Source of the DNA: Blastococcus sp. CT_GayMR20
GTDB lineage: Bacteria; Actinomycetota; Actinomycetes; Mycobacteriales; Geodermatophilaceae
Direction of reading: 5' to 3'
DNA: 43,128 bases
Assembly: GCF_004570345.1 (NCBI RefSeq)
Contig: NZ_SPQM01000023.1
Location: 1 to 43,128 of the forward strand
Made by a program: the position numbers and the translations under genes. Positions 1 through 43,128 of this stretch are shown one piece after another. The notes below the pieces were generated by a model. It was not told the origin of the DNA. It made no database searches and saw only the letters and a list, made by a program, of their open reading frames with translations. Every line of letters starts with the position of its first letter. Position 1 is the first letter of the stretch.

Positions 1-1
1 C

Positions 2-673
2 GAGGACACCGGCACGACCTCGCCGGGCCGCAGCAAGGAGGAGGCGACCGACTACCGGTACTTCCCCGAGCCCGACCTCGTGCCCGTCGCACCCGACGAG
101 GAGTGGGTCGCGAAGCTGCTGGCCACGCTCCCCGAGCTGCCGGCCGCGCGCCGCACCCGGCTGTCGGACGAGTGGGGCATCGCACCCACCGAGATGGCCT
201 GGCTCGTCAACGCCGGCGCCGTCGAGCTGGTCAGCGACACCGTGGCCGCCGGTGCCTCGCCCGCCGACGCCCGCAAGTGGTGGCTGGGCGAGCTGGCCCG
301 CCGCGCGAACGACGCCGGTGTCGAGCTGGGGGGACTCGCCGTGACGCCGCAGCAGGTCGCGGAGCTCGTCGGCCTCGTCTCGGCCGGCACCATCAACGAC
401 CAGCTGGCGCGGCAGGCCCTGGACGGCGTGCTCGCGGGCGAGGGCGGTCCGGCAGAGGTCGTGGAGAGCCGCGGCCTGGCCGTCATGGGGGAGTCCGACG
501 AGCTCGTGGCGGCCGTCGACGCCGCGATCGAGGCGAACCCGGACGTCGCCGAGAAGGTGCGCGGCGGCAAGGTCCAGGCGATCGGTGCACTGGTCGGCGC
601 GGTCATGAAGACCACCCGCGGCAAGGCCGACGCCGCCACCGTCAAGCGGATGCTCGAAGAGCGGCTCAGCTGA
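2..673 (+). CDS. gatB: Asp/Glu-tRNA amidotransferase subunit B, C-terminal part
   Basis: Subunit B of the GatCAB amidotransferase, which converts misacylated Glu-tRNA(Gln) and Asp-tRNA(Asn) to the amidated forms. The window begins inside the gene: 223 residues of the roughly 500 usual are present, with no start. The frame opens with SKEEATDYRYFPEPDLVPV, the family signature of the cradle domain. The helical and GatB/YqeY tail follows, with AxxWWLGELARRAN near the middle and GALVGAVMKTTRGKADAATV near the end, the tRNA-interacting region. The TGA stop abuts the stop of the converging lipoprotein gene with no bases between. Position next to an LppZ-like gene matches mycobacteria. Confidence 0.96.
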   Translation, partial: EDTGTTSPGRSKEEATDYRYFPEPDLVPVAPDEEWVAKLLATLPELPAARRTRLSDEWGIAPTEMAWLVNAGAVELVSDTVAAGASPADARKWWLGELARRANDAGVELGGLAVTPQQVAELVGLVSAGTINDQLARQALDGVLAGEGGPAEVVESRGLAVMGESDELVAAVDAAIEANPDVAEKVRGGKVQAIGALVGAVMKTTRGKADAATVKRMLEERLS

Positions 674-1822
674 TCACAACGGCGAGTTGCCTGCCGAGGA
701 CGGGGGGAGGATGCGCAGCACCTTGTCGTCGTCCTCGGCGGGCGTGCCGACGCCGTCCTTGTTCGACGTCGTGATCCACAGCGCGCCCTCGGTGTCCAGG
801 ACGACGGTGCGCAGCCGCCCGTACTGACCGCCGAGGAACTCCTCGGGGTCGCCGACGACGGCCCCGGCGTCGTCGAGGGTGAGCGCGGTGATCCGCTCGC
901 CGTCCAGCGCGCCGAGGAAGATCGCTCCCGGCGCGGCCGCGCACCCGCCCAGGCCGCCCTCCTCGGCGGGCACCTCGGCCAGCGGCGGGGCCAGCGCGTA
1001 GTTGGCGCCGAGCGTCAGCGCATCGATCTGGTCCGGGCCCGTCGTGGCGGCGTCGGTGGCCGCGTCGGTCGCGTAGACGGCGGTCTCACCGGTCGCACAG
1101 ATGGCGGTGACGTCGCGGTGCCCCCGGCTGAAGACGATGTCCCCGTTGACGGGTCGGCCGAAGACGTCCATGCGCAGGACCTTGCCCCCGGTCGACGTGG
1201 GGTCCGTCGCGAGGGCGGGGTTCCCGGCGTCGCCGGTGCCGACGAGCAGGTGGCCGTCGAGGCCGAAGACCAGGGCGCCGCCGTTGTGCACGTCCCCGCG
1301 CGGGATGCCGGTGAAGACGTCGTTGGGCGTGCCGCCGATCGGGAAGCGGACGACGCGGTTGTCGGTCGGCGTGGTCATGTACGCGTAGACGAGGCCGTCC
1401 TCGAGGAACGTCGGCGACAGGGCCAGCCCCAGCAGCCCGCCGTCCCCGGAGGTGTCGATGCCGGGCACCGTCATCAGCTCCCGGGCGGGGGAGCGGTCGG
1501 GGAAGACCTGGATGATCCGGCCGGTGTCCCGCTCGCCGACGAGCGCCGAACCGTCGGGCATCAGCGTCAGGCCGGTGGGCACGGTCAGCCCGGAGGCGAC
1601 GACGTTGGGGTCGCCGTCGGTGTCACCGGAACCGGGCTGCGCGGGCTGCCCGGGGACGGGCGCCTGCGAGGACGGGGGCCCGACCTCGGGCGGTGCTCCC
1701 TCCGGCTTCGGCCGGAACGGGCCGGACGGCTCGTAGCCGTCGCTCCCGCAGCCGGTCAGCACGGTGCCGGCGAGCAGGAGGACGACGGGCCAGGAAGCCC
1801 GTCCGCCGGTCCGCCGCCTCAC
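674..1822 (-). CDS. LppZ-like lipoprotein, glucose/sorbosone dehydrogenase fold
   Basis: Predicted exported lipoprotein of about 382 residues. A basic N terminus, a hydrophobic stretch (VVLLLAGTV) and the lipobox LTGC give lipidation at the Cys near residue 25. A proline-rich linker follows, then a beta-propeller of the PQQ-type sugar dehydrogenase (GSDH) family with SGDGGLLGLALSP, HNGGALVFGLDGHLLVGTGD and GGKVLRMD. The family oxidises sugars with PQQ, but many actinobacterial members such as LppZ have no proven activity, and I cannot assign a substrate. The start is GTG at 1822, because a -10-like TACTGT lies 7 bp upstream; GTG at 1831 is the in-frame alternative but overlaps that hexamer. 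Divergent from the 2-hydroxyacid dehydrogenase. Confidence 0.88.
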   Translation of the reverse strand: MRRRTGGRASWPVVLLLAGTVLTGCGSDGYEPSGPFRPKPEGAPPEVGPPSSQAPVPGQPAQPGSGDTDGDPNVVASGLTVPTGLTLMPDGSALVGERDTGRIIQVFPDRSPARELMTVPGIDTSGDGGLLGLALSPTFLEDGLVYAYMTTPTDNRVVRFPIGGTPNDVFTGIPRGDVHNGGALVFGLDGHLLVGTGDAGNPALATDPTSTGGKVLRMDVFGRPVNGDIVFSRGHRDVTAICATGETAVYATDAATDAATTGPDQIDALTLGANYALAPPLAEVPAEEGGLGGCAAAPGAIFLGALDGERITALTLDDAGAVVGDPEEFLGGQYGRLRTVVLDTEGALWITTSNKDGVGTPAEDDDKVLRILPPSSAGNSPL

Positions 1823-1872
1823 CTGCTTCACAGTACGTGCGCTTCCTGGGGACCCGCCTAGAGTCGCTGCTC

Positions 1873-2814
1873 GTGCCTTCCCCGATCCTCCCGCCGGACG
1901 AGACCCTCCACGTGCTGGTGCCCTCGCGGGCCATCGGCAGCGCGATCGAGGCGGTCTCGCCGCGCGTGCGCGCCCACCGGATCGACGCCGGCGACGGCCC
2001 GCCGGAGGGGGAGGCGGCCCTGGCGCAGATGTGGGTCCCGCGCGCCGGTGGAGTGCCGGACGGCGACTTCCTGGAGGCGCTGCCCCGGTTGAAGCTGGTC
2101 CAGCTGCTCAGTGCCGGAGCCGAGCTGTTCGTCGACCGGCTGCCCGACGGGGTGCTCCTGTGCAACGCGCGGGGAGCGCACACGCCCTCGACCGCCGAGT
2201 GGGCCGTGACCGCCACCCTCGCCGTGCTGCGCGGGATTCCCTTCTTCGTCCGGGAGCAGGAGGCCGGGCGGTGGACGTTCGGCACCCACTCCTCGCTCGT
2301 CGGAGCGCGGGTGCTGCTGGTCGGGGCCGGCGACATCGCGCAGGCCATCGGCCGGATGATGGCGGGCTTCGACGTCGAGCTCACCTACGTCGGGCGGTCC
2401 GCGCGCGAGGGGGTGCACTCCACCGCGGAGCTGCCGGAGCTCCTGCCGCAGGCCGACGTCGTGATCGTCATCGTCCCCGTCACGCCGGAGACGACCGGGA
2501 TGGTCGACGCCGGCTTCCTGGCCGCGATGAAGGACGGCGCTCTGCTGGTCAACGCCGCGCGGGGCGTCGTCGTCGACACCGGGGCGCTGCTGGCAGAGCT
2601 CTCCAGCGGCCGGCTCCGGGCCGCGCTGGACGTCACCGACCCCGAGCCGCTGCCGGCGGGGCATCCACTCTGGTCGGCGCCCGGACTCCTGCTGACACCG
2701 CACGTCGGGGGCGCGGTCCCCGAGACCAACGCGCGCGCGGCGGCGGCAGTCGTCGCGCAGGTGACCCGACTCCTGGCCGGCGAGCCGCCGGCCGACGTGG
2801 TCGACCGCTACTGA
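1873..2814 (+). CDS. D-isomer-specific 2-hydroxyacid dehydrogenase
   Basis: A 313-residue NAD(P)-dependent oxidoreductase of the D-2-hydroxyacid dehydrogenase family, which interconverts 2-oxoacids and D-2-hydroxyacids; the substrate cannot be told from sequence. The nucleotide-binding loop GAGDIA is at residues 151-156. The catalytic triad is visible: Arg230 in VNAARG, Glu258 in DPEPLP and His277 in TPHVGG. There is no ACT or ASB regulatory domain, unlike SerA further along. GTG at 1873 is chosen because TAGAGT (1859-1864) lies 8 bp upstream, as for other genes here; an in-frame GTG at 1837 is less likely. The 3' end overlaps the converging PH-domain gene by 7 bp. Confidence 0.92.
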   Translation: MPSPILPPDETLHVLVPSRAIGSAIEAVSPRVRAHRIDAGDGPPEGEAALAQMWVPRAGGVPDGDFLEALPRLKLVQLLSAGAELFVDRLPDGVLLCNARGAHTPSTAEWAVTATLAVLRGIPFFVREQEAGRWTFGTHSSLVGARVLLVGAGDIAQAIGRMMAGFDVELTYVGRSAREGVHSTAELPELLPQADVVIVIVPVTPETTGMVDAGFLAAMKDGALLVNAARGVVVDTGALLAELSSGRLRAALDVTDPEPLPAGHPLWSAPGLLLTPHVGGAVPETNARAAAAVVAQVTRLLAGEPPADVVDRY

Positions 2815-3194
2815 CCGGCCGAGGGGGGAGCCGGCACCTCGATCCGGCCGCCGGAGAGCTCCGCCAGGCGCGGCAGGTCGCGGGCGCGGATGACCGGCAC
2901 GCGCACCTCGGTGCCACCGGTGGTCACCAGCCAGAGGGCGCCCCGGTCGGCCACCCGGATGCCGGCGAGCTCCGGCCACCGCACGGTCCGGCTGCCGACG
3001 AGCGAGTGCACCGTGAGCCCGTCGTCGCCGACGTCGACGCCGCTGCGCAGCACCCAGAGCGCGACCGCCAGCGGGAGGAGGAAGACGACCAGCGTCCACG
3101 CGCTCGCGGTGGCGAGCGGGACGGCGCACAGCGCCAGGAAGGCGACCGGGACCAGCGCGGTCCGGTTCATGCGCAGCCGGGCGGTGGTGCTCAC
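2808..3194 (-). CDS. PH-domain membrane protein, CFP-6 (Rv3004) type
   Basis: A 128-residue protein with two adjacent hydrophobic segments near the N terminus (ALVPVAFLALCAVPLATA and TLVVFLLPLAVALWVL) followed by a small beta-rich domain: GVDVGDDGLTVHSLVGSRTV, then WPELAGIRVADRGALWLV. This is the layout of the bacterial PH-domain family that includes mycobacterial CFP-6, which also sits beside ilvB-ilvN-ilvC. Function is unknown; membrane association is inferred. The start is GTG at 3194, with GGGAGG 10 nt upstream; ATG at 3170 is possible. It lies 23 bp downstream of the XRE regulator on the same strand and is probably co-transcribed with it. Confidence 0.82.
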   Translation of the reverse strand: MSTTARLRMNRTALVPVAFLALCAVPLATASAWTLVVFLLPLAVALWVLRSGVDVGDDGLTVHSLVGSRTVRWPELAGIRVADRGALWLVTTGGTEVRVPVIRARDLPRLAELSGGRIEVPAPPSAGQ

Positions 3195-3217
3195 GACGGC
3201 CGATCCTCCCAGACGGG

Positions 3218-4039
3218 TCAGGCGGCGAGGCGGGACAGGCGGGCGGCTGTCTCGCTGCCGTCGGCGGCCGTGTAGACGACCAGGTGCAGGCCCGGGGCAT
3301 CGGCGGGGGTGAGCTGGTGGTGCTCCAGCAGGAGGGTGCCCACCACCGGGTGCTCGAAGCGGCGCTCGCCGGAGCTGAACCGGTCCACGTCGTGGCTGGC
3401 CCAGCCCTCGCGGAAGTGCGGGCTGGCCGCCCGCAGCCGGTCGACCAGGTCCGCGACGTCGCGATCTGCCAGCCGTGGGCCGACCTCCGCCCGGAATTGG
3501 GTGAGGAACCGCCGGCTGTCGGTCGTCCAGTCGCCCAGGAGTTCGCGGACGGCTGGGTCGGTGAACACGAGCCACAGCAGGTTCCGGTCGGACGCCGGCA
3601 CCCGGGCCACCCCGGGGTAGAAGCGCTCGTAGGCCCGGTTCCAGCCCACGATGGCCCAGTTCGCCGTGATCGCGTAGGCGGGGGAGGTGCCGAGGGCGTC
3701 CAGCAGCCGTTGCACGTGCACCGGCATCGCGTCGGCGTCCTCGCCCGGTGGCCGGCCGCCGTGTCCGGACAGGTGCAGCACGTACTCGTGCTCGGCCGGT
3801 GTGAGCAGCAGCGTCCGGGCCAGGGCGTCGATGACCTGCCGCGACGGCCGGATGTCCCGGGCCTGCTCCAGCCACGTGAACCAGGTGTGGCTCACGCCCG
3901 CGAGGAGGGCGACCTCCTCCCGGCGCAACCCGGGGGTGCGCCGGTTGCCGCCCGCGGGCAGGCCGACGGCGCGCGGGTCCAGCTGACGGCGCCGCGAGCG
4001 GAGGAACTCCGCCAGCTCGCGGCGGGTGGCGACGGTCAC
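3218..4039 (-). CDS. XRE-family regulator with MmyB-like ligand domain
   Basis: A 273-residue DNA-binding regulator. Residues 1-80 hold a Cro/C1-type helix-turn-helix with the MmyB-type signature [18 protein letters not shown] followed by [10 protein letters not shown]. Residues from about 100 form the PAS-like MmyB ligand-binding domain, with [39 protein letters not shown], a central [15 protein letters not shown] and a final [10 protein letters not shown]. Members usually control a divergent neighbour; here that is ilvD, whose start is 82 bp away. The GTG start at 4039 is preceded by a G-rich site (GGGGG) 4 nt upstream. A dyad at 4050-4077, just upstream, is a candidate operator. The ligand is unknown. 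Confidence 0.93.
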
Positions 4040-4049
4040 GCGACCCCCT

Positions 4050-4077
4050 TCGATGGTGGTGTCGGTACCAGTATCGA
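4050..4077. promoter_or_regulatory. 28-bp dyad between regulator gene and ilvD
   Basis: Outer arms TCGAT and ATCGA and inner arms GGT and ACC are placed symmetrically about the centre at 4063/4064, giving an interrupted inverted repeat. It lies 10 bp upstream of the XRE regulator start and 44 bp upstream of the ilvD start, a typical place for an autoregulatory operator. Binding is inferred from position and symmetry only. Confidence 0.4.
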
Positions 4078-4107
4078 GGCAGCCAGTGAGCGGCTCGGTC
4101 ACCGGCC

Positions 4108-4113
4108 TACGAT
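4108..4113 (+). promoter_or_regulatory. -10-like hexamer TACGAT of ilvD
   Basis: TACGAT fits TANNNT and ends 8 bp before the GTG start at 4122, so the transcript would begin at or next to the start codon. No convincing -35 element is seen. The same spacing recurs before several genes in this window. Confidence 0.45.
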
Positions 4114-4121
4114 CGGCGACC

Positions 4122-5831
4122 GTGACCACCGTGGAGGACCGCCCCGCCGGCAGCGAGACCGCCGATCTGAAGCCGCGCAGCTTCGAGGTGACCGACGGCG
4201 ACGCCAGGGCGCCGGCTCGCGCCATGCTGCGCGCCGTCGGCATGGAGGACGAGGACTTCGCCAAGCCGCAGATCGGCGTGGCGTCGTCGTGGAACGAGAT
4301 CACCCCCTGCAACCTCTCCCTGGACCGGCTGGCCAAGCGGGCGAAGGAGGGCGTCCGCGTCGCGGGCGGGTTCCCGCTGGAGTTCGGCACCATCTCCGTG
4401 AGCGACGGCATCTCCATGGGGCACGAGGGCATGCGCGCCTCGCTGGTCTCACGCGAGGTCATCGCCGACTCCGTCGAGACGGTGATGTTCGCCGAGCGCC
4501 TCGACGGCTCGGTGCTGCTGGCCGGCTGCGACAAGTCGCTGCCCGGGATGCTCATGGCCGCGGCCCGCCTCGACCTCGCGGCCGTCTTCCTCTACGCCGG
4601 CTCGACGCTGCCGGGCAAGCTCGGCGACCGCGACCTGACGATCATCGACGTCTTCGAGGGCGTCGGCGCCTGTGCCGCGGGCAAGATCACCCGCGAGGAG
4701 CTGACCGCCATCGAGAAGGCCACCTGTCCCGGCGAGGGCGCCTGCGGCGGCATGTACACCGCCAACACCATGGCCAGCGCGGCCGAGGCCCTCGGCATGA
4801 GCCTGCCGGGCAGCGCGGCCCCGCCGGCCCCGGACCGGCGCCGCGACGCGTTCGCCGTCGCCTCCGGGGAGGCGGTCGTGCAGATGCTGCGCAAGGGCAT
4901 CACCGCGCGGCAGATCATGACGAGGAAGGCGTTCGAGAACGCGATCACCGTCGTCATGGCGCTCGGCGGCTCGACCAACGCCGTCCTCCACCTGCTGGCG
5001 ATCGCGCACGAGGCGCAGGTGGACCTGACGCTGGAGGACTTCAACCGGATCGGCGACCGCACGCCGCACCTGGCCGACGTCAAGCCGTTCGGCCGCTTCG
5101 TCATGACCGACATCGACCGCATCGGCGGCGTCCCCGTCGTCATGCGCGCGCTGCTGGACGCGGGCCTGCTGCACGGCGACGCGCTCACCGTGACCGGCAA
5201 GACCATGGCGGAGAACCTCGCCGAGATCGCCCCGCCGGACCCCGACGGCGCGATCATCCACGCGATGAACGACCCGATCCACAGGACCGGGGGCCTCTCC
5301 ATCCTCCGCGGGTCGCTCGCCCCCGAGGGCGCGGTCGTCAAGTCCGCCGGCTTCGACGCGGCCACCTTCGAGGGCACCGCGCGTGTCTTCGACGGCGAGC
5401 AGGGCGCCATGGACGCCGTCACCGAGGGCACGCTCAAGCCGGGGGACGTGGTGGTCATCCGGTACGAGGGACCCCGCGGGGGCCCGGGCATGCGCGAGAT
5501 GCTGGCCGTGACCGGCGCGATCAAGGGAGCCGGGCTCGGCAAGGACGTCCTCCTCCTCACCGACGGCCGCTTCTCGGGCGGGACGACGGGGCTCTGCATC
5601 GGGCACGTGGCCCCGGAGGCGACCGACGGCGGACCCATCGCCTTCGTCCGCGACGGGGACCGCATCCGCCTCGACCTCGCCGCCCGCACCCTCGACCTCG
5701 TCGTCGGCGAGGCCGAGCTGGCCGCGCGCAAGGAGGGGTGGACCCCGCTCCCGCCGCGCTACACCACGGGTGTGCTCGGCAAGTACGCCAAGCTCGTGGG
5801 CTCGGCGGCGCAGGGCGCCATCTGCGGCTGA
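4122..5831 (+). CDS. ilvD: Dihydroxy-acid dehydratase
   Basis: Iron-sulfur enzyme that dehydrates 2,3-dihydroxy-isovalerate and 2,3-dihydroxy-3-methylvalerate to the 2-oxoacids that are transaminated to valine and isoleucine. The 569-residue length fits the short IlvD class. The three cluster-ligand cysteines are visible: Cys63 in NEITPCNLS, Cys136 in AGCDKSLPG and Cys208 in [16 protein letters not shown]. The catalytic serine motif GRFSGGTTG is near the C terminus. GTG at 4122 is chosen for its TACGAT hexamer and the conserved [11 protein letters not shown] that follows; GTG at 4131 is an alternative. It stands alone, divergent from the XRE regulator, and not inside the ilvBNC operon. Confidence 0.98.
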
Positions 5832-5927
5832 GCCGCCGGAACACGCGATTCGGGGACACCCCTCGAACGGGTGACCCGACCCCCCGCCCGGCTTGTCACC
5901 CTCGGTGAGCATGCCGAGGTAGCGGGT

Positions 5928-8573
5928 GTGGACTTCCGTCGATGGTGGCTGCTCGCAGCGGTCGTGCCGGTGCTCGTCGCCTGCGCGGTGGCCGTGGGCG
6001 ACCCCGCCCTGAGCCTGGTCGGCGACCTGGGCGTCGTGGCCGCCGGTCTCACCGCCTCGGCCGTCCTCTGGGTGGTCGGTGGCCGGCGGCCGCAGCGGCG
6101 CAGCTGGCGCCTGCTCGCGGCGGCCCCGCTGCTCCCGGTCCTCGGCACGCTGCTGTCCAGCGTCGTCGACCCCGCCGACCCACTGCAGTTGGTCGTCCTG
6201 CGCTGGGTGCCCACCGTGCCCGGCTACCTCATCGCCATCGTGGCCATCCTCTCGCTCGTCGACCGGAAGCGACTGCGCAACGGCGGGCTCCGCCTCGTGG
6301 TGGAGCTGGCCCTGTTCTCCGCGGCGTCCGTAGTCGTGGTCCAGCTCCTGGTCGTGGGTCCCGCCGGCAGCTGGTCTCACCTGGCCGTCGCCGAGCAACT
6401 GGTCCTCGCCGCCGCCGTGGTATCCACCTCGGCCACCATGGCCGCCGCCCTCACCGTGCTCGGCGTGATCGAAGGGCGCCGTCAGCGGATGGCGCTCGTC
6501 CTGCTGGCCGGCGCCGTCCTGCTCACCTCCGGCCGCGGACTGGCCACGCGGGCCCTCCTCGGCGACTGGATGGTCGGCGTGGACCTCAGCCGGTTCCTCG
6601 TCGCCGGCGGCCTGGGCCTCCTCGCGGCGGCCGTGCTGATCGACCCCGGATTCGACCCGGACGGCGGCGTTCCGGCTGCCAAGGGCCGCACCACCGAGCT
6701 GGGACAGCTCCTGCCGCACGTGGCGATGGCCATCGCGATCGTCGTCCTCGGCGCCGTGCCCATGGCGGGCCACGTGCCGACGGCGGTCAACTTCGTCGGT
6801 GCCGTCGTGTGCGTCGTCCTCACGGCGGTGCACCGCTGGGTCACCAGTCGCGACGCGCGGCGCATGGCCGGGCGCCTGCGCCGCAGCGAGGCCTACTTCC
6901 GCTCCCTGGTGCGCTCGAGCGGCGACGCGGTCGTCATCCTCGACGACAAGCTGCAGATCACCTGGGCGTCGCCGGCGCTCGACCGGGCCCTCGGCCCGGC
7001 CGCGGCCCGGCTGCTCGGCCGCCGCCTGCTCGACGCCGTCCACCCCGAGGACGTCGCCGCGCTGACCGGTGCCCTGCCGGCGTCGCCCTGCGAGGCGATG
7101 CCGGAGGACGCGCACCACCTGCTGCTGCTGCGGCTCCAGGACGACGAGGGGGTGTGGCGCTACCTCGAGGCCGGTGTCTCGGACCTGCGGGACGACCCGG
7201 ACGTCGGCGCCGTCGTCCTGCACTGCCGGGACATGACCGAGCGGCACGCCCGCGAGCAGGCGCTGCAGAGCGTGGCCTACACCGATCCGATGACCGGGCT
7301 GCCCAACCGTGCCGGCATCCTGCAGACCCTGCAGGCCGAACTGGCCGACGCCGACCGCGGGCCGTCGTCCCTGCTGATGATCGCGCTCGACGGCCTCGCC
7401 GAGGCGCGGGAGAGCGCCGGCCGCGAGACCGTGACCGCGGTGATGGCCGAGATCGGCCGTCGCCTGCGCTCCACCGTGCGCGGCGAGGACACCGTCGCCC
7501 GGATGGGCGGTGGCGCCTTCGCCGTCCTCGCCCACGGCGGGGACGGCGACGCCGACCGGCTGGCCGCGCGCTGCCTGTCCGTCGTCGAGCAGCCGTTCGT
7601 CACTCCGGCGGGCCTGCTCGAGCTGACCGCCGGCGTGGGTGTCGCGCCCCTCGAGGCGGGACTCGGAGTCGACGAACTGCTCGCACACGCCGACCTGGCC
7701 GTGCGCGCATCCCACACCAACGGTGCGGGTTCGGCCGCCCGCTACTGCCCGTCACTCGGTGAGGCGGCCGCCCGGCAGGAGCGGCTGCGCGCCGACCTCC
7801 AGGGCGCCTGCGCACGCGACGAGCTCTTCCTCCTGGTGCAGCCGATCGTCTCCATCGCCGAGGAGCGCATCACCGGTCTGGAGGCGCAACTGCACTGGCG
7901 GCACCCCGAGCTCGGCGAGATCCCGCCGGCCGAGTTCCTCTCCCTCGCCGAGCGCACCGGTCTCATCGGCGAGGTGGTGCGCTGGGCCCTCGAGGAGGCG
8001 ACCTCCGTCGCCGCCGGGCTGCCCGGCGGCGAGCAGCCGTTGCGCATCGGGTTCAAGGTGCCCGCGCGGCATGCCGCCACCGGCACCCTCGTCGCCGATG
8101 TCGAGCACGCGCTGAACCGGTCCGGGCTCGCCCCCGAGCGGCTCGTGCTGCAGGTCTCCGCCTCCACGGTCATGGCCGCTGACGACCGCACCGGCATGGA
8201 CATCACGTCGCTGCGGCTGATGGGCGTGCACGTGGCCCTGGACGGCTTCGGCAGCGGCAACTCGACGCTGGCGCACCTCACCCAGCTGCCCATCGACATC
8301 GTCCGGCTCGACCGGACGATGATCGCCCGCATCGACCGCGACCCCCAGAGCCGGGCCCTCTGCGAGTCGGTCATCGGCATCGCCAAGGCGCTCAGCATCG
8401 ACGTCGTCGCCGAAGGGGTGGAGACCCCCGCCCAGCTCGCCGCACTGGCCGGCTTCGGCTGCGACTTCGCCCAGGGCTTCCTCATCTCGCGCCCGGTGCC
8501 GCTGGGCCGGCTGACCGCGATGCTCGCCGACGGGGCGGGGTCGCTGTTGCCCGGCTTCGTGAGCCGCGTGTGA
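5928..8573 (+). CDS. Membrane PAS-GGDEF-EAL protein with degenerate active sites
   Basis: An 881-residue integral membrane protein with about ten hydrophobic segments in residues 1-310, a PAS domain from about 320 (SEAYFRSLVRSSGDAVVI), a GGDEF domain from about 450 (AYTDPMTGLPNRAGI) and an EAL domain from about 620. The family makes or degrades cyclic di-GMP, but both sites look dead. The GGDEF signature is GGGAF (527-531). The EAL motif is EAQ (652-654). The metal-binding Asp pair is DG (772-773), the catalytic Lys is Arg in IVRLDR, and the usual Asn and Glu positions read FKVPAR and LQVSAS. AEGVE (Glu829) and QGFLISRP remain. I infer a sensor or receptor role. GTG at 5928 has GAGGT 7 nt upstream; GTG at 5871 is an alternative. 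Confidence 0.9.
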   Translation: MDFRRWWLLAAVVPVLVACAVAVGDPALSLVGDLGVVAAGLTASAVLWVVGGRRPQRRSWRLLAAAPLLPVLGTLLSSVVDPADPLQLVVLRWVPTVPGYLIAIVAILSLVDRKRLRNGGLRLVVELALFSAASVVVVQLLVVGPAGSWSHLAVAEQLVLAAAVVSTSATMAAALTVLGVIEGRRQRMALVLLAGAVLLTSGRGLATRALLGDWMVGVDLSRFLVAGGLGLLAAAVLIDPGFDPDGGVPAAKGRTTELGQLLPHVAMAIAIVVLGAVPMAGHVPTAVNFVGAVVCVVLTAVHRWVTSRDARRMAGRLRRSEAYFRSLVRSSGDAVVILDDKLQITWASPALDRALGPAAARLLGRRLLDAVHPEDVAALTGALPASPCEAMPEDAHHLLLLRLQDDEGVWRYLEAGVSDLRDDPDVGAVVLHCRDMTERHAREQALQSVAYTDPMTGLPNRAGILQTLQAELADADRGPSSLLMIALDGLAEARESAGRETVTAVMAEIGRRLRSTVRGEDTVARMGGGAFAVLAHGGDGDADRLAARCLSVVEQPFVTPAGLLELTAGVGVAPLEAGLGVDELLAHADLAVRASHTNGAGSAARYCPSLGEAAARQERLRADLQGACARDELFLLVQPIVSIAEERITGLEAQLHWRHPELGEIPPAEFLSLAERTGLIGEVVRWALEEATSVAAGLPGGEQPLRIGFKVPARHAATGTLVADVEHALNRSGLAPERLVLQVSASTVMAADDRTGMDITSLRLMGVHVALDGFGSGNSTLAHLTQLPIDIVRLDRTMIARIDRDPQSRALCESVIGIAKALSIDVVAEGVETPAQLAALAGFGCDFAQGFLISRPVPLGRLTAMLADGAGSLLPGFVSRV

Positions 8574-8656
8574 CCGGGGACCGGCGCCCGCACCCTGGCC
8601 CCGCGCCCGCGTCGCCGCCTTCGATCCTCGCCGTCCTCGACGTGGGTCGGCCGGAA

Positions 8657-8674
8657 ATGGACACCGGTGTCCAT
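8657..8674. promoter_or_regulatory. 18-bp perfect palindrome, candidate operator
   Basis: ATGGACACCGGTGTCCAT is identical to its reverse complement. It ends 17 bp before the possible -35 element of the ilvB leader promoter. Size and symmetry resemble sites of dimeric helix-turn-helix regulators such as the TetR family. No regulator of that type is encoded nearby. Confidence 0.5.
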
Positions 8675-8691
8675 CTGGTGGGACGGGCCGG

Positions 8692-8721
8692 TTGACGGCT
8701 CGACCGACCGAGGCGCACAGT
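8692..8721 (+). promoter_or_regulatory. Possible ilvB leader promoter
   Basis: TTGACG (8692-8697) and CACAGT (8716-8721) are separated by 18 bp. The -35 is good, while the -10 lacks the first T. Initiation about 7 nt after the -10 would fall on the GTG at 8728, making the leader ORF leaderless. Confidence 0.4.
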
Positions 8722-8727
8722 GTGCAG

Positions 8728-8784
8728 GTGCCACGCGCCTGCCTGCTCGTTCCTGGCTGCCCGCGCAGCCTCGTAGTCGCCTAG
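8728..8784 (+). CDS. ilvB leader peptide (attenuator uORF)
   Basis: A short ORF ending in TAG at 8782-8784. GTG at 8728 gives 18 residues; GTG at 8722 gives 20. It contains two branched-chain runs, Leu-Leu-Val (CTG CTC GTT, 8743-8751) and Leu-Val-Val (CTC GTA GTC, 8770-8778), just before a hairpin and an intrinsic terminator upstream of ilvB. That is the arrangement of ribosome-mediated attenuation known for ilvBNC in Corynebacterium. Stalling when leucine or valine tRNA is uncharged would be expected to alter folding downstream. A perfect small hairpin (8755-8770) also lies within the ORF. Confidence 0.72.
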   Translation: MPRACLLVPGCPRSLVVA

Positions 8785-8809
8785 CGCGTCGGTCTGCGAC
8801 CGACGCGCT
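8783..8809 (+). promoter_or_regulatory. Hairpin following the ilvB leader ORF
   Basis: AGCGCGTCGGT pairs perfectly with ACCGACGCGCT (11 bp) around the loop CTGCG. The 5' arm begins inside the leader stop codon, so a ribosome stalled on the Leu-Val-Val codons would cover it. It probably acts as the pause or switching helix. I could not find a clear alternative pairing that would form the antiterminator. Confidence 0.65.
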
Positions 8810-8810
8810 G

Positions 8811-34285: not shown

Positions 34286-34346
34286 AAAAAACCCCTCGTG
34301 CCACAGGCACGGAGGGGTCAGCGCGTCGGTCGCAGACCGACGCGCT
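34286..34346 (-). terminator. ilvB attenuator hairpins and terminator (right copy)
   Basis: Mirror of 8783-8843: 11-bp hairpin at 34320-34346, then the terminator stem with six-base T run at 34286-34318. Confidence 0.83.
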
Positions 34347-34401
34347 AGGCGACTACGAGGCTGCGCGGGCAGCCAGGAACGAGCAGGCAGGCGCGTGGCA
34401 C
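34345..34401 (-). CDS. ilvB leader peptide (right copy)
   Basis: Mirror of 8728-8784: 18 codons with Leu-Leu-Val and Leu-Val-Val runs. Confidence 0.7.
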   Translation of the reverse strand: MPRACLLVPGCPRSLVVA

Positions 34402-34454
34402 CTGCACACTGTGCGCCTCGGTCGGTCGAGCCGTCAACCGGCCCGTCCCACCAG

Positions 34455-34472
34455 ATGGACACCGGTGTCCAT
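34455..34472. promoter_or_regulatory. 18-bp perfect palindrome (right copy)
   Basis: Mirror of 8657-8674; candidate operator upstream of the ilvB leader. Being self-complementary, it reads the same in both arms. Confidence 0.5.
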
Positions 34473-34555
34473 TTCCGGCCGACCCACGTCGAGGACGGCG
34501 AGGATCGAAGGCGGCGACGCGGGCGCGGGGCCAGGGTGCGGGCGCCGGTCCCCGG

Positions 34556-37201
34556 TCACACGCGGCTCACGAAGCCGGGCAACAGCGACCCCGCCCCGTC
34601 GGCGAGCATCGCGGTCAGCCGGCCCAGCGGCACCGGGCGCGAGATGAGGAAGCCCTGGGCGAAGTCGCAGCCGAAGCCGGCCAGTGCGGCGAGCTGGGCG
34701 GGGGTCTCCACCCCTTCGGCGACGACGTCGATGCTGAGCGCCTTGGCGATGCCGATGACCGACTCGCAGAGGGCCCGGCTCTGGGGGTCGCGGTCGATGC
34801 GGGCGATCATCGTCCGGTCGAGCCGGACGATGTCGATGGGCAGCTGGGTGAGGTGCGCCAGCGTCGAGTTGCCGCTGCCGAAGCCGTCCAGGGCCACGTG
34901 CACGCCCATCAGCCGCAGCGACGTGATGTCCATGCCGGTGCGGTCGTCAGCGGCCATGACCGTGGAGGCGGAGACCTGCAGCACGAGCCGCTCGGGGGCG
35001 AGCCCGGACCGGTTCAGCGCGTGCTCGACATCGGCGACGAGGGTGCCGGTGGCGGCATGCCGCGCGGGCACCTTGAACCCGATGCGCAACGGCTGCTCGC
35101 CGCCGGGCAGCCCGGCGGCGACGGAGGTCGCCTCCTCGAGGGCCCAGCGCACCACCTCGCCGATGAGACCGGTGCGCTCGGCGAGGGAGAGGAACTCGGC
35201 CGGCGGGATCTCGCCGAGCTCGGGGTGCCGCCAGTGCAGTTGCGCCTCCAGACCGGTGATGCGCTCCTCGGCGATGGAGACGATCGGCTGCACCAGGAGG
35301 AAGAGCTCGTCGCGTGCGCAGGCGCCCTGGAGGTCGGCGCGCAGCCGCTCCTGCCGGGCGGCCGCCTCACCGAGTGACGGGCAGTAGCGGGCGGCCGAAC
35401 CCGCACCGTTGGTGTGGGATGCGCGCACGGCCAGGTCGGCGTGTGCGAGCAGTTCGTCGACTCCGAGTCCCGCCTCGAGGGGCGCGACACCCACGCCGGC
35501 GGTCAGCTCGAGCAGGCCCGCCGGAGTGACGAACGGCTGCTCGACGACGGACAGGCAGCGCGCGGCCAGCCGGTCGGCGTCGCCGTCCCCGCCGTGGGCG
35601 AGGACGGCGAAGGCGCCACCGCCCATCCGGGCGACGGTGTCCTCGCCGCGCACGGTGGAGCGCAGGCGACGGCCGATCTCGGCCATCACCGCGGTCACGG
35701 TCTCGCGGCCGGCGCTCTCCCGCGCCTCGGCGAGGCCGTCGAGCGCGATCATCAGCAGGGACGACGGCCCGCGGTCGGCGTCGGCCAGTTCGGCCTGCAG
35801 GGTCTGCAGGATGCCGGCACGGTTGGGCAGCCCGGTCATCGGATCGGTGTAGGCCACGCTCTGCAGCGCCTGCTCGCGGGCGTGCCGCTCGGTCATGTCC
35901 CGGCAGTGCAGGACGACGGCGCCGACGTCCGGGTCGTCCCGCAGGTCCGAGACACCGGCCTCGAGGTAGCGCCACACCCCCTCGTCGTCCTGGAGCCGCA
36001 GCAGCAGCAGGTGGTGCGCGTCCTCCGGCATCGCCTCGCAGGGCGACGCCGGCAGGGCACCGGTCAGCGCGGCGACGTCCTCGGGGTGGACGGCGTCGAG
36101 CAGGCGGCGGCCGAGCAGCCGGGCCGCGGCCGGGCCGAGGGCCCGGTCGAGCGCCGGCGACGCCCAGGTGATCTGCAGCTTGTCGTCGAGGATGACGACC
36201 GCGTCGCCGCTCGAGCGCACCAGGGAGCGGAAGTAGGCCTCGCTGCGGCGCAGGCGCCCGGCCATGCGCCGCGCGTCGCGACTGGTGACCCAGCGGTGCA
36301 CCGCCGTGAGGACGACGCACACGACGGCACCGACGAAGTTGACCGCCGTCGGCACGTGGCCCGCCATGGGCACGGCGCCGAGGACGACGATCGCGATGGC
36401 CATCGCCACGTGCGGCAGGAGCTGTCCCAGCTCGGTGGTGCGGCCCTTGGCAGCCGGAACGCCGCCGTCCGGGTCGAATCCGGGGTCGATCAGCACGGCC
36501 GCCGCGAGGAGGCCCAGGCCGCCGGCGACGAGGAACCGGCTGAGGTCCACGCCGACCATCCAGTCGCCGAGGAGGGCCCGCGTGGCCAGTCCGCGGCCGG
36601 AGGTGAGCAGGACGGCGCCGGCCAGCAGGACGAGCGCCATCCGCTGACGGCGCCCTTCGATCACGCCGAGCACGGTGAGGGCGGCGGCCATGGTGGCCGA
36701 GGTGGATACCACGGCGGCGGCGAGGACCAGTTGCTCGGCGACGGCCAGGTGAGACCAGCTGCCGGCGGGACCCACGACCAGGAGCTGGACCACGACTACG
36801 GACGCCGCGGAGAACAGGGCCAGCTCCACCACGAGGCGGAGCCCGCCGTTGCGCAGTCGCTTCCGGTCGACGAGCGAGAGGATGGCCACGATGGCGATGA
36901 GGTAGCCGGGCACGGTGGGCACCCAGCGCAGGACGACCAACTGCAGTGGGTCGGCGGGGTCGACGACGCTGGACAGCAGCGTGCCGAGGACCGGGAGCAG
37001 CGGGGCCGCCGCGAGCAGGCGCCAGCTGCGCCGCTGCGGCCGCCGGCCACCGACCACCCAGAGGACGGCCGAGGCGGTGAGACCGGCGGCCACGACGCCC
37101 AGGTCGCCGACCAGGCTCAGGGCGGGGTCGCCCACGGCCACCGCGCAGGCGACGAGCACCGGCACGACCGCTGCGAGCAGCCACCATCGACGGAAGTCCA
37201 C
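34556..37201 (-). CDS. Degenerate PAS-GGDEF-EAL membrane protein (right copy)
   Basis: Mirror of 5928-8573: 881 residues, GGGAF in place of GGDEF and EAQ in place of EAL. GTG start at 37201; the alternative GTG is at 37258. Confidence 0.9.
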   Translation of the reverse strand: MDFRRWWLLAAVVPVLVACAVAVGDPALSLVGDLGVVAAGLTASAVLWVVGGRRPQRRSWRLLAAAPLLPVLGTLLSSVVDPADPLQLVVLRWVPTVPGYLIAIVAILSLVDRKRLRNGGLRLVVELALFSAASVVVVQLLVVGPAGSWSHLAVAEQLVLAAAVVSTSATMAAALTVLGVIEGRRQRMALVLLAGAVLLTSGRGLATRALLGDWMVGVDLSRFLVAGGLGLLAAAVLIDPGFDPDGGVPAAKGRTTELGQLLPHVAMAIAIVVLGAVPMAGHVPTAVNFVGAVVCVVLTAVHRWVTSRDARRMAGRLRRSEAYFRSLVRSSGDAVVILDDKLQITWASPALDRALGPAAARLLGRRLLDAVHPEDVAALTGALPASPCEAMPEDAHHLLLLRLQDDEGVWRYLEAGVSDLRDDPDVGAVVLHCRDMTERHAREQALQSVAYTDPMTGLPNRAGILQTLQAELADADRGPSSLLMIALDGLAEARESAGRETVTAVMAEIGRRLRSTVRGEDTVARMGGGAFAVLAHGGDGDADRLAARCLSVVEQPFVTPAGLLELTAGVGVAPLEAGLGVDELLAHADLAVRASHTNGAGSAARYCPSLGEAAARQERLRADLQGACARDELFLLVQPIVSIAEERITGLEAQLHWRHPELGEIPPAEFLSLAERTGLIGEVVRWALEEATSVAAGLPGGEQPLRIGFKVPARHAATGTLVADVEHALNRSGLAPERLVLQVSASTVMAADDRTGMDITSLRLMGVHVALDGFGSGNSTLAHLTQLPIDIVRLDRTMIARIDRDPQSRALCESVIGIAKALSIDVVAEGVETPAQLAALAGFGCDFAQGFLISRPVPLGRLTAMLADGAGSLLPGFVSRV

Positions 37202-37297
37202 ACCCGCTACCTCGGCATGCTCACCGAGGGTGACAAGCCGGGCGGGGGGTCGGGTCACCCGTTCGAGGGGTGTCCCCGAATCGCGTGTTCCGGCGGC

Positions 37298-39007
37298 TCA
37301 GCCGCAGATGGCGCCCTGCGCCGCCGAGCCCACGAGCTTGGCGTACTTGCCGAGCACACCCGTGGTGTAGCGCGGCGGGAGCGGGGTCCACCCCTCCTTG
37401 CGCGCGGCCAGCTCGGCCTCGCCGACGACGAGGTCGAGGGTGCGGGCGGCGAGGTCGAGGCGGATGCGGTCCCCGTCGCGGACGAAGGCGATGGGTCCGC
37501 CGTCGGTCGCCTCCGGGGCCACGTGCCCGATGCAGAGCCCCGTCGTCCCGCCCGAGAAGCGGCCGTCGGTGAGGAGGAGGACGTCCTTGCCGAGCCCGGC
37601 TCCCTTGATCGCGCCGGTCACGGCCAGCATCTCGCGCATGCCCGGGCCCCCGCGGGGTCCCTCGTACCGGATGACCACCACGTCCCCCGGCTTGAGCGTG
37701 CCCTCGGTGACGGCGTCCATGGCGCCCTGCTCGCCGTCGAAGACACGCGCGGTGCCCTCGAAGGTGGCCGCGTCGAAGCCGGCGGACTTGACGACCGCGC
37801 CCTCGGGGGCGAGCGACCCGCGGAGGATGGAGAGGCCCCCGGTCCTGTGGATCGGGTCGTTCATCGCGTGGATGATCGCGCCGTCGGGGTCCGGCGGGGC
37901 GATCTCGGCGAGGTTCTCCGCCATGGTCTTGCCGGTCACGGTGAGCGCGTCGCCGTGCAGCAGGCCCGCGTCCAGCAGCGCGCGCATGACGACGGGGACG
38001 CCGCCGATGCGGTCGATGTCGGTCATGACGAAGCGGCCGAACGGCTTGACGTCGGCCAGGTGCGGCGTGCGGTCGCCGATCCGGTTGAAGTCCTCCAGCG
38101 TCAGGTCCACCTGCGCCTCGTGCGCGATCGCCAGCAGGTGGAGGACGGCGTTGGTCGAGCCGCCGAGCGCCATGACGACGGTGATCGCGTTCTCGAACGC
38201 CTTCCTCGTCATGATCTGCCGCGCGGTGATGCCCTTGCGCAGCATCTGCACGACCGCCTCCCCGGAGGCGACGGCGAACGCGTCGCGGCGCCGGTCCGGG
38301 GCCGGCGGGGCCGCGCTGCCCGGCAGGCTCATGCCGAGGGCCTCGGCCGCGCTGGCCATGGTGTTGGCGGTGTACATGCCGCCGCAGGCGCCCTCGCCGG
38401 GACAGGTGGCCTTCTCGATGGCGGTCAGCTCCTCGCGGGTGATCTTGCCCGCGGCACAGGCGCCGACGCCCTCGAAGACGTCGATGATCGTCAGGTCGCG
38501 GTCGCCGAGCTTGCCCGGCAGCGTCGAGCCGGCGTAGAGGAAGACGGCCGCGAGGTCGAGGCGGGCCGCGGCCATGAGCATCCCGGGCAGCGACTTGTCG
38601 CAGCCGGCCAGCAGCACCGAGCCGTCGAGGCGCTCGGCGAACATCACCGTCTCGACGGAGTCGGCGATGACCTCGCGTGAGACCAGCGAGGCGCGCATGC
38701 CCTCGTGCCCCATGGAGATGCCGTCGCTCACGGAGATGGTGCCGAACTCCAGCGGGAACCCGCCCGCGACGCGGACGCCCTCCTTCGCCCGCTTGGCCAG
38801 CCGGTCCAGGGAGAGGTTGCAGGGGGTGATCTCGTTCCACGACGACGCCACGCCGATCTGCGGCTTGGCGAAGTCCTCGTCCTCCATGCCGACGGCGCGC
38901 AGCATGGCGCGAGCCGGCGCCCTGGCGTCGCCGTCGGTCACCTCGAAGCTGCGCGGCTTCAGATCGGCGGTCTCGCTGCCGGCGGGGCGGTCCTCCACGG
39001 TGGTCAC
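37298..39007 (-). CDS. ilvD: Dihydroxy-acid dehydratase (right copy)
   Basis: Mirror of 4122-5831: 569 residues, cluster cysteines 63, 136 and 208. TACGAT at 39016-39021 on the minus strand. Confidence 0.97.
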
Positions 39008-39051
39008 GGTCGCCGATCGTAGGCCGGTGACCGAGCCGCTCACTGGCTGCC

Positions 39052-39079
39052 TCGATACTGGTACCGACACCACCATCGA
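39052..39079. promoter_or_regulatory. 28-bp dyad between ilvD and regulator gene (right copy)
   Basis: Mirror of 4050-4077: symmetric TCGAT/ATCGA and GGT/ACC half-sites, 10 bp upstream of the regulator start at 39090. Confidence 0.4.
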
Positions 39080-39089
39080 AGGGGGTCGC

Positions 39090-39911
39090 GTGACCGTCGC
39101 CACCCGCCGCGAGCTGGCGGAGTTCCTCCGCTCGCGGCGCCGTCAGCTGGACCCGCGCGCCGTCGGCCTGCCCGCGGGCGGCAACCGGCGCACCCCCGGG
39201 TTGCGCCGGGAGGAGGTCGCCCTCCTCGCGGGCGTGAGCCACACCTGGTTCACGTGGCTGGAGCAGGCCCGGGACATCCGGCCGTCGCGGCAGGTCATCG
39301 ACGCCCTGGCCCGGACGCTGCTGCTCACACCGGCCGAGCACGAGTACGTGCTGCACCTGTCCGGACACGGCGGCCGGCCACCGGGCGAGGACGCCGACGC
39401 GATGCCGGTGCACGTGCAACGGCTGCTGGACGCCCTCGGCACCTCCCCCGCCTACGCGATCACGGCGAACTGGGCCATCGTGGGCTGGAACCGGGCCTAC
39501 GAGCGCTTCTACCCCGGGGTGGCCCGGGTGCCGGCGTCCGACCGGAACCTGCTGTGGCTCGTGTTCACCGACCCAGCCGTCCGCGAACTCCTGGGCGACT
39601 GGACGACCGACAGCCGGCGGTTCCTCACCCAATTCCGGGCGGAGGTCGGCCCACGGCTGGCAGATCGCGACGTCGCGGACCTGGTCGACCGGCTGCGGGC
39701 GGCCAGCCCGCACTTCCGCGAGGGCTGGGCCAGCCACGACGTGGACCGGTTCAGCTCCGGCGAGCGCCGCTTCGAGCACCCGGTGGTGGGCACCCTCCTG
39801 CTGGAGCACCACCAGCTCACCCCCGCCGATGCCCCGGGCCTGCACCTGGTCGTCTACACGGCCGCCGACGGCAGCGAGACAGCCGCCCGCCTGTCCCGCC
39901 TCGCCGCCTGA
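39090..39911 (+). CDS. MmyB-type XRE regulator (right copy)
   Basis: Mirror of 3218-4039: 273 residues, N-terminal helix-turn-helix and PAS-like ligand domain. GTG at 39090 after GGGGG. Confidence 0.93.
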
Positions 39912-39934
39912 CCCGTCTGGGAGGATCGGCCGTC

Positions 39935-40321
39935 GTGAGCACCACCGCCCGGCTGCGCATGAACCGGACCGCGCTGGTCCCGGTCGCCTTCCTGGCGCTG
40001 TGCGCCGTCCCGCTCGCCACCGCGAGCGCGTGGACGCTGGTCGTCTTCCTCCTCCCGCTGGCGGTCGCGCTCTGGGTGCTGCGCAGCGGCGTCGACGTCG
40101 GCGACGACGGGCTCACGGTGCACTCGCTCGTCGGCAGCCGGACCGTGCGGTGGCCGGAGCTCGCCGGCATCCGGGTGGCCGACCGGGGCGCCCTCTGGCT
40201 GGTGACCACCGGTGGCACCGAGGTGCGCGTGCCGGTCATCCGCGCCCGCGACCTGCCGCGCCTGGCGGAGCTCTCCGGCGGCCGGATCGAGGTGCCGGCT
40301 CCCCCCTCGGCCGGTCAGTAG
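39935..40321 (+). CDS. PH-domain membrane protein, CFP-6 type (right copy)
   Basis: Mirror of 2808-3194: 128 residues. GTG at 39935 with GGGAGG at 39919-39924; 23 bp after the regulator gene. Confidence 0.82.
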   Translation: MSTTARLRMNRTALVPVAFLALCAVPLATASAWTLVVFLLPLAVALWVLRSGVDVGDDGLTVHSLVGSRTVRWPELAGIRVADRGALWLVTTGGTEVRVPVIRARDLPRLAELSGGRIEVPAPPSAGQ

Positions 40322-41256
40322 CGGTCGACCACGTCGGCCGGCGGCTCGCCGGCCAGGAGTCGGGTCACCTGCGCGACGACTGCCGCCGCCGCGCGCGCGT
40401 TGGTCTCGGGGACCGCGCCCCCGACGTGCGGTGTCAGCAGGAGTCCGGGCGCCGACCAGAGTGGATGCCCCGCCGGCAGCGGCTCGGGGTCGGTGACGTC
40501 CAGCGCGGCCCGGAGCCGGCCGCTGGAGAGCTCTGCCAGCAGCGCCCCGGTGTCGACGACGACGCCCCGCGCGGCGTTGACCAGCAGAGCGCCGTCCTTC
40601 ATCGCGGCCAGGAAGCCGGCGTCGACCATCCCGGTCGTCTCCGGCGTGACGGGGACGATGACGATCACGACGTCGGCCTGCGGCAGGAGCTCCGGCAGCT
40701 CCGCGGTGGAGTGCACCCCCTCGCGCGCGGACCGCCCGACGTAGGTGAGCTCGACGTCGAAGCCCGCCATCATCCGGCCGATGGCCTGCGCGATGTCGCC
40801 GGCCCCGACCAGCAGCACCCGCGCTCCGACGAGCGAGGAGTGGGTGCCGAACGTCCACCGCCCGGCCTCCTGCTCCCGGACGAAGAAGGGAATCCCGCGC
40901 AGCACGGCGAGGGTGGCGGTCACGGCCCACTCGGCGGTCGAGGGCGTGTGCGCTCCCCGCGCGTTGCACAGGAGCACCCCGTCGGGCAGCCGGTCGACGA
41001 ACAGCTCGGCTCCGGCACTGAGCAGCTGGACCAGCTTCAACCGGGGCAGCGCCTCCAGGAAGTCGCCGTCCGGCACTCCACCGGCGCGCGGGACCCACAT
41101 CTGCGCCAGGGCCGCCTCCCCCTCCGGCGGGCCGTCGCCGGCGTCGATCCGGTGGGCGCGCACGCGCGGCGAGACCGCCTCGATCGCGCTGCCGATGGCC
41201 CGCGAGGGCACCAGCACGTGGAGGGTCTCGTCCGGCGGGAGGATCGGGGAAGGCAC
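40315..41256 (-). CDS. D-2-hydroxyacid dehydrogenase (right copy)
   Basis: Mirror of 1873-2814: 313 residues, Arg230, Glu258 and His277 triad. Overlaps the converging PH-domain gene by 7 bp. Confidence 0.92.
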   Translation of the reverse strand: MPSPILPPDETLHVLVPSRAIGSAIEAVSPRVRAHRIDAGDGPPEGEAALAQMWVPRAGGVPDGDFLEALPRLKLVQLLSAGAELFVDRLPDGVLLCNARGAHTPSTAEWAVTATLAVLRGIPFFVREQEAGRWTFGTHSSLVGARVLLVGAGDIAQAIGRMMAGFDVELTYVGRSAREGVHSTAELPELLPQADVVIVIVPVTPETTGMVDAGFLAAMKDGALLVNAARGVVVDTGALLAELSSGRLRAALDVTDPEPLPAGHPLWSAPGLLLTPHVGGAVPETNARAAAAVVAQVTRLLAGEPPADVVDRY

Positions 41257-41306
41257 GAGCAGCGACTCTAGGCGGGTCCCCAGGAAGCGCACGTACTGTG
41301 AAGCAG

Positions 41307-42455
41307 GTGAGGCGGCGGACCGGCGGACGGGCTTCCTGGCCCGTCGTCCTCCTGCTCGCCGGCACCGTGCTGACCGGCTGCGGGAGCGACGGCTACGAGC
41401 CGTCCGGCCCGTTCCGGCCGAAGCCGGAGGGAGCACCGCCCGAGGTCGGGCCCCCGTCCTCGCAGGCGCCCGTCCCCGGGCAGCCCGCGCAGCCCGGTTC
41501 CGGTGACACCGACGGCGACCCCAACGTCGTCGCCTCCGGGCTGACCGTGCCCACCGGCCTGACGCTGATGCCCGACGGTTCGGCGCTCGTCGGCGAGCGG
41601 GACACCGGCCGGATCATCCAGGTCTTCCCCGACCGCTCCCCCGCCCGGGAGCTGATGACGGTGCCCGGCATCGACACCTCCGGGGACGGCGGGCTGCTGG
41701 GGCTGGCCCTGTCGCCGACGTTCCTCGAGGACGGCCTCGTCTACGCGTACATGACCACGCCGACCGACAACCGCGTCGTCCGCTTCCCGATCGGCGGCAC
41801 GCCCAACGACGTCTTCACCGGCATCCCGCGCGGGGACGTGCACAACGGCGGCGCCCTGGTCTTCGGCCTCGACGGCCACCTGCTCGTCGGCACCGGCGAC
41901 GCCGGGAACCCCGCCCTCGCGACGGACCCCACGTCGACCGGGGGCAAGGTCCTGCGCATGGACGTCTTCGGCCGACCCGTCAACGGGGACATCGTCTTCA
42001 GCCGGGGGCACCGCGACGTCACCGCCATCTGTGCGACCGGTGAGACCGCCGTCTACGCGACCGACGCGGCCACCGACGCCGCCACGACGGGCCCGGACCA
42101 GATCGATGCGCTGACGCTCGGCGCCAACTACGCGCTGGCCCCGCCGCTGGCCGAGGTGCCCGCCGAGGAGGGCGGCCTGGGCGGGTGCGCGGCCGCGCCG
42201 GGAGCGATCTTCCTCGGCGCGCTGGACGGCGAGCGGATCACCGCGCTCACCCTCGACGACGCCGGGGCCGTCGTCGGCGACCCCGAGGAGTTCCTCGGCG
42301 GTCAGTACGGGCGGCTGCGCACCGTCGTCCTGGACACCGAGGGCGCGCTGTGGATCACGACGTCGAACAAGGACGGCGTCGGCACGCCCGCCGAGGACGA
42401 CGACAAGGTGCTGCGCATCCTCCCCCCGTCCTCGGCAGGCAACTCGCCGTTGTGA
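41307..42455 (+). CDS. LppZ-like lipoprotein (right copy)
   Basis: Mirror of 674-1822: lipobox LTGC then sugar-dehydrogenase-type beta-propeller. TACTGT at 41294-41299 precedes GTG 41307 by 7 bp; GTG 41298 is the alternative. Confidence 0.88.
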   Translation: MRRRTGGRASWPVVLLLAGTVLTGCGSDGYEPSGPFRPKPEGAPPEVGPPSSQAPVPGQPAQPGSGDTDGDPNVVASGLTVPTGLTLMPDGSALVGERDTGRIIQVFPDRSPARELMTVPGIDTSGDGGLLGLALSPTFLEDGLVYAYMTTPTDNRVVRFPIGGTPNDVFTGIPRGDVHNGGALVFGLDGHLLVGTGDAGNPALATDPTSTGGKVLRMDVFGRPVNGDIVFSRGHRDVTAICATGETAVYATDAATDAATTGPDQIDALTLGANYALAPPLAEVPAEEGGLGGCAAAPGAIFLGALDGERITALTLDDAGAVVGDPEEFLGGQYGRLRTVVLDTEGALWITTSNKDGVGTPAEDDDKVLRILPPSSAGNSPL

Positions 42456-43127
42456 TCAGCTGAGCCGCTCTTCGAGCATCCGCTTGACGGTGGCGGCGTC
42501 GGCCTTGCCGCGGGTGGTCTTCATGACCGCGCCGACCAGTGCACCGATCGCCTGGACCTTGCCGCCGCGCACCTTCTCGGCGACGTCCGGGTTCGCCTCG
42601 ATCGCGGCGTCGACGGCCGCCACGAGCTCGTCGGACTCCCCCATGACGGCCAGGCCGCGGCTCTCCACGACCTCTGCCGGACCGCCCTCGCCCGCGAGCA
42701 CGCCGTCCAGGGCCTGCCGCGCCAGCTGGTCGTTGATGGTGCCGGCCGAGACGAGGCCGACGAGCTCCGCGACCTGCTGCGGCGTCACGGCGAGTCCCCC
42801 CAGCTCGACACCGGCGTCGTTCGCGCGGCGGGCCAGCTCGCCCAGCCACCACTTGCGGGCGTCGGCGGGCGAGGCACCGGCGGCCACGGTGTCGCTGACC
42901 AGCTCGACGGCGCCGGCGTTGACGAGCCAGGCCATCTCGGTGGGTGCGATGCCCCACTCGTCCGACAGCCGGGTGCGGCGCGCGGCCGGCAGCTCGGGGA
43001 GCGTGGCCAGCAGCTTCGCGACCCACTCCTCGTCGGGTGCGACGGGCACGAGGTCGGGCTCGGGGAAGTACCGGTAGTCGGTCGCCTCCTCCTTGCTGCG
43101 GCCCGGCGAGGTCGTGCCGGTGTCCTC
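42456..43127 (-). CDS. gatB: GatB C-terminal part (right copy)
   Basis: Mirror of 2-673: the final 223 residues, cut by the window end at the same codon as the left copy. Its stop directly abuts that of the lipoprotein gene. Confidence 0.95.
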   Translation of the reverse strand, partial: EDTGTTSPGRSKEEATDYRYFPEPDLVPVAPDEEWVAKLLATLPELPAARRTRLSDEWGIAPTEMAWLVNAGAVELVSDTVAAGASPADARKWWLGELARRANDAGVELGGLAVTPQQVAELVGLVSAGTINDQLARQALDGVLAGEGGPAEVVESRGLAVMGESDELVAAVDAAIEANPDVAEKVRGGKVQAIGALVGAVMKTTRGKADAATVKRMLEERLS

Positions 43128-43128
43128 G

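Follow-up and report, generated by a model that had tools for sequence, protein, structure and literature searches.

A 43,128-nt palindromic contig from a Blastococcus-like actinobacterium as a probable snap-back chimera of a linear gatB-gltX segment

Introduction

The contig NZ_SPQM01000023.1, assigned to Blastococcus sp. CT_GayMR20, was analysed over its whole length of 43,128 nt, and this stretch is referred to here as the window. It consists of two long arms that mirror each other around a short centre, and the question is whether the organism carries such a palindrome or whether the mirror arose technically. Should it prove genuine, it would be an uncommon example of a long natural palindrome, with a short spacer, from an actinobacterium. 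According to our analysis, the window very probably derives from an ordinary linear piece of chromosome that a technical step turned into a fold-back (snap-back) chimera, and does not reflect how the genome is built.

Results

Aligned position by position against its reverse complement, the window differs at 96 positions, all of them within 21482-21647. The two arms, 1-21481 and 21648-43128, mirror each other without a single difference. The original prediction of an inverted repeat of about 21.48 kb with a 166-base centre was correct to the base, and this centre can now be resolved into a loop of 148 nt, the 8-base stretches that pair across it and, outside these, one mismatched pair. Extended by BLAST, the arms measure 21490 bases with one mismatch. 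The parts of the mirror are as follows:

1..21481, plus strand: left arm, mirrored copy of the right arm (100% identity to the reverse complement of 21648-43128)
21648..43128, minus strand: right arm, native chromosomal segment from gatB to gltX
21482..21647, minus strand: centre of 166 nt, single-copy gltX sequence, the minus strand carrying gltX onward
21482/21647: mismatched pair
21483..21490, plus strand: fold-back site of 8 nt, complementary to 21639-21646
21639..21646, plus strand: fold-back partner, complementary to 21483-21490
21491-21638: loop of 148 nt, within the centre

The exact mirroring of the arms also bears out the doubling of the genes in opposite orientation, with both ends stopping at the same gatB base. 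Identical arms and a common end base are both what an assembler would produce if it walked one edge both ways. The perfection of the arms had been read as a sign of artefact; the identity is indeed exact, but as independent evidence it loses its weight if the edge was walked twice, in which case it arises by construction. Only the centre and the junction then count as independent evidence, and the stretch that was really mirrored may fall well short of 21 kb. Among 99 loci from other genomes (1,683,401 bases, several of the loci overlapping one another), none matched its own opposite strand over 500 bp or longer with an identity exceeding 90%.

Profile searches identified core chromosomal genes in the arms, which are DNA of a Blastococcus-like bacterium. 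The genes are given below in left-arm coordinates, except for the native gltX reading; each has its mirror in the other arm.

2..673, plus strand: gatB, 3' part only (profile positions 278-499 of 501; mirror 42456-43127, minus strand)
4026..5831, plus strand: ilvD, dihydroxy-acid dehydratase (open frame; the true start lies further in)
5871..8573, plus strand: PAS-GGDEF-EAL protein (profile searches)
8842..10758, plus strand: ilvB, acetolactate synthase large subunit (profile search)
10758..11285, plus strand: ilvN, acetolactate synthase small subunit (profile search)
11330..12358, plus strand: ilvC, ketol-acid reductoisomerase (profile search)
13530..15569, plus strand: serA, phosphoglycerate dehydrogenase (open frame; the match starts at residue 154)
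15529..16608, plus strand: leuB, 3-isopropylmalate dehydrogenase (profile search)
17195..18820, plus strand: cimA, citramalate synthase (profile search)
19592..20404, plus strand: fumarylacetoacetate-hydrolase-family protein (all matches below the curated cut-offs)
20401..23133, plus strand: chimeric open frame of 910 aa, a gltX start followed by antisense of gltX (mirror 19996-22728, minus strand)
21481..22728, minus strand: gltX codons 1-416, native, truncated by the fold (gltX profile)

Other frames carry GSDH, MmyB-like regulator with HTH, bacterial PH and ABM domains. No recombinase, transposase, telomere or mobile-element protein was named among the 27 open reading frame stretches tested, as had been predicted for the first three; the half of the window that was examined holds 65 overlapping open reading frames of at least 120 aa, so that this test was not exhaustive. 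The window contains no tRNA and no Rfam match at the gathering score. An identical copy (100%) of the PAS-GGDEF-EAL protein, P0213, is present on an 18,416-bp contig that is possibly another assembly of the same organism. A further protein with 63% identity to it, P0300, is filed as Bacillus sp. AZ43 (marked as unverified by the source), a label that looks wrong.

The reading of gltX distinguishes the two arms. On the minus strand it runs uninterrupted from the right arm into the loop, while on the plus strand, from the left arm into the loop, it is lost at the fold. Judged from the sequence, the minus strand of the right arm together with the loop is native gltX and the left arm is the copy. 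The window lacks a complete gltX or gatB, as had been stated, both gltX copies ending at codon 416. The break had been placed at residue 415; the truncation stands, and the native reading extends through codon 416. This codon is GAC (D416), shared with a complete GltX encoded elsewhere (P0121, see below). Codon 417 is CTC in the window, where P0121 has A417 and the nine closest loci (L001-L009) have an alanine codon. The codon-417 result rests on these nine loci; the crude anchor used for the comparison placed 45 of 80 loci, 20 having no anchor and 15 no open reading frame, and at least L010 was mis-anchored. In the 910-aa open frame only the first 416 codons are gltX. No counterpart of this frame covered more than 47% of it among the 120 matches listed, from a search in which 7999 of 8000 scored candidates passed.

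At the junction, the native sequence ends in GGTGCTGGAC. Up to and including codon 416 the minus strand is native; beyond it the sequence jumps back by about 167 nt and goes on as the complement of that strand. Nine of the last ten native bases are complementary to a site about 167 nt upstream on this strand, eight of them contiguously; the single mismatch, A-A, adjoins the native end. The pairing is composed of the 21483-21490 stem, the mismatch 21482/21647 and the next pair, 21481/21648. In a control of 4000 random 3' ends within the arm, in which a separation of at least 24 bases was required and any 9 of 10 pairing was accepted, an upstream partner was found for 2.25% of the ends within 200 nt, 7.6% within 500 nt and 16% within 1000 nt, and the proportion thus varies with the distance searched. 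In the fold predicted for the last 219 native bases as single-stranded DNA, the 8-base pairing is present, but the fold as a whole is unremarkable (z -1.28), with 23 of 200 shuffled sequences folding equally well.

Related genomes were compared for their linear order, as the original prediction had proposed. In the genome collection, the nine top-ranking matches to GltX have 81-91% protein identity and are titled Geodermatophilus (three), Blastococcus (three), Geodermatophilaceae bacterium, Frankiales bacterium and Goekera. Nine related loci, out of 80, were used for the junction comparison (plus strand only, matches of more than 200 bases). All nine follow the native order, with gltX running past the fold point: the match passes through the loop and ends at native 21617-21686, in 4/9 at exactly 21648, which is window 21481. 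None of the nine continues into the mirror. The L007 match passes the junction by 38 bases, which was taken as chance extension, and the L003 and L006 matches end 31 bases short of it. The outer part of the native segment is collinear in seven genomes (seven stretches, matches of more than 150 bases kept). Six of these match from the first native base, which lies inside gatB, and therefore the outer end does not mark a biological border; in the seventh, L094, the match does not set in until native 2841, close to the end of its contig. Each of the 23 genus-group genomes yielded a single strong match to gltX, and the others were weak and short. The exact junction pattern was found in none of 112 family genomes, a weak test as DNA differs between species, and it had no match in viral contigs. 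Among the loci collected, L054, titled Vibrio cholerae strain 35D, has a GltX 68% identical to the actinobacterial one and looks mislabelled or contaminated.

An intact GltX is found on another contig. P0121 is a complete 498-aa GltX on an 11,229-bp contig, and all 415 of 415 native residues compared are identical (a protein-level match); the next GltX match listed is 93% identical. At the protein level, P0121 agrees with the expectation that gltX continues normally past the fold, and it may come from the same reads. P0121 could instead be a second gltX copy of the same genome, and would then not be proof of a linear chromosome.

Discussion

The exact mirror, the 9-of-10 junction, the linear order in relatives and the intact GltX elsewhere support the snap-back chimera that had been put forward as the leading cause. 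In the proposed sequence of events, a free 3' end in gltX would have re-annealed to the upstream site during amplification or a library step, either on its own strand or on a nearby displaced strand, and would then have been extended back along DNA that had already been copied. The assembler may subsequently have followed the arm outward, crossed the loop and returned along the arm in reverse orientation. Since the 8 contiguous shared bases are too few for the k-mers or overlaps in common use, the chimera was probably already present as a molecule or read before assembly. If the window arose by such a snap-back, the mirrored gene copies would be absent from the organism.

Multiple displacement amplification (MDA) with phi29 appears to fit best as the responsible step, by analogy with published chimeras; a fold-back during some other library step could produce such a junction too. 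In a study of amplified E. coli DNA (PMC1855051), the inverted type accounted for 406 of 475 chimeras, complementary stretches of 2 to 21 bases were present in 76.8%, and re-annealing to nearby displaced strands was favoured over simple hairpin self-priming as the main route. Either route yields the product seen in the window. A larger reanalysis of MDA data (PMC4595205) gives overlaps of mostly 5-8 nt and a distance that peaks at 250-300 nt and ranges to over 5000. In the window, two parts of one locus are joined in opposite orientation, the overlap is 8 contiguous bases (9 of 10), and the parts are separated by about 167 nt. In one long-read study of amplified DNA, palindromic reads made up 25.56-38.46% of the matched mitochondrial reads (PMC13265396).

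The chief competing explanation is a recent inverted duplication in the living cell, produced by fold-back replication in the manner of a tandem inversion duplication, with an intact gltX elsewhere supplying the enzyme. Fold-back priming in cells, for which yeast and bacterial models have been described, is expected to give the same type of junction, an intact GltX that is probably of the same organism exists (P0121), and the 148-nt spacer should lessen palindrome instability. In PMC4689423 / PMC6959608, wider arm separation increases palindrome stability, and a 246-bp interrupted palindrome in E. coli, although such palindromes are cut by SbcCD and this one about every replication cycle, has a fitness cost of only 0.6%, so that a palindrome is not necessarily lethal. 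Against an origin in the cell, neither side of the window has a unique flank, and the duplication is absent from the nine loci compared and from the 23 genus-group genomes. The gene gltX is essential; an intact copy of it within the window would be expected for a duplication in vivo, and both copies there are broken. We consider such a duplication unlikely. It would mean that a Blastococcus-like actinobacterium, in at least part of its population, carries a very recent gatB-ilv-leu-gltX inverted duplication with a 148-nt spacer and tolerates it despite hairpin cleavage.

The remaining explanations are less probable still. A long-read fold-back artefact, in which both strands of one duplex are read as one read, has been reported: in PMC12870357 / PMC13141652 it affects about 0.55-0.6% of genomic reads from ONT, and inverted repeats amount to 0.18-7.33% in libraries made by ligation. 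In one PacBio HiFi set covered there, however, such reads were virtually absent. Strands read in succession require no complementary 9-of-10 site at the junction, and raw reads of this kind would not, without consensus, yield 21,481 identical bases; we regard this source as very improbable. Assembly error from normal reads had been named next to amplification and fold-back reads as a possible source of the chimera. Assemblers can put an edge and its complement into one path, but the junction shares just 8 contiguous bases (9 of 10), below the usual k-mer or overlap lengths. Assembly alone is hardly credible as the cause of the chimera. A natural palindromic or hairpin-ended replicon (a linear plasmid or terminal inverted repeat) would have exact inverted arms with a short loop, as seen here. 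The arm genes, however, are core chromosomal genes of a family with circular chromosomes, and the outer end lies inside gatB, from the first base of which six of seven genomes match. A natural replicon is accordingly extremely unlikely. The plasmid reading was rejected, none of 58 matching plasmid records covering 80% of the arm and the top one covering 18%; for a linear plasmid or hairpin replicon, no replicon or telomere genes were named in the 27 stretches tested.

For users of the assembly, the contig makes each of its genes appear in twice as many copies, in agreement with the twofold overcount foreseen in the original prediction, and counts should be halved. The two 910-aa GltX-antisense open reading frames are nonsense proteins that a gene caller would report, and they should not be annotated. 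Such a contig could pass for terminal inverted repeats or a palindromic replicon. Comparison of a contig with its own reverse complement detects artefacts of this kind.

In terms of known systems, the window resembles the inverted chimeras of phi29 MDA (PMC1855051, PMC4595205) in its inverted junction, short overlap, short distance and single template. It differs from them in its 21-kb mirrored arms, which were probably drawn by the assembler, and in the one internal mismatch of the overlap. The palindromic reads of whole-genome amplification (PMC13265396) share the mirror image around a fold; those cases are raw nanopore reads of mitochondria, whereas the window is a contig. In nanopore fold-back reads (PMC12870357, PMC13141652), the second half aligns to the locus of the first but in opposite orientation, with the fold at the middle, as in the window, in which, by contrast, the junction lies at a complementary site with a retained loop. 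Tandem inversion duplications and fold-back inversions in cells have in common with the window an inverted duplication, a short spacer and junction microhomology, whereas the window has neither unique flanks nor an intact gltX, and no relative examined has the structure.
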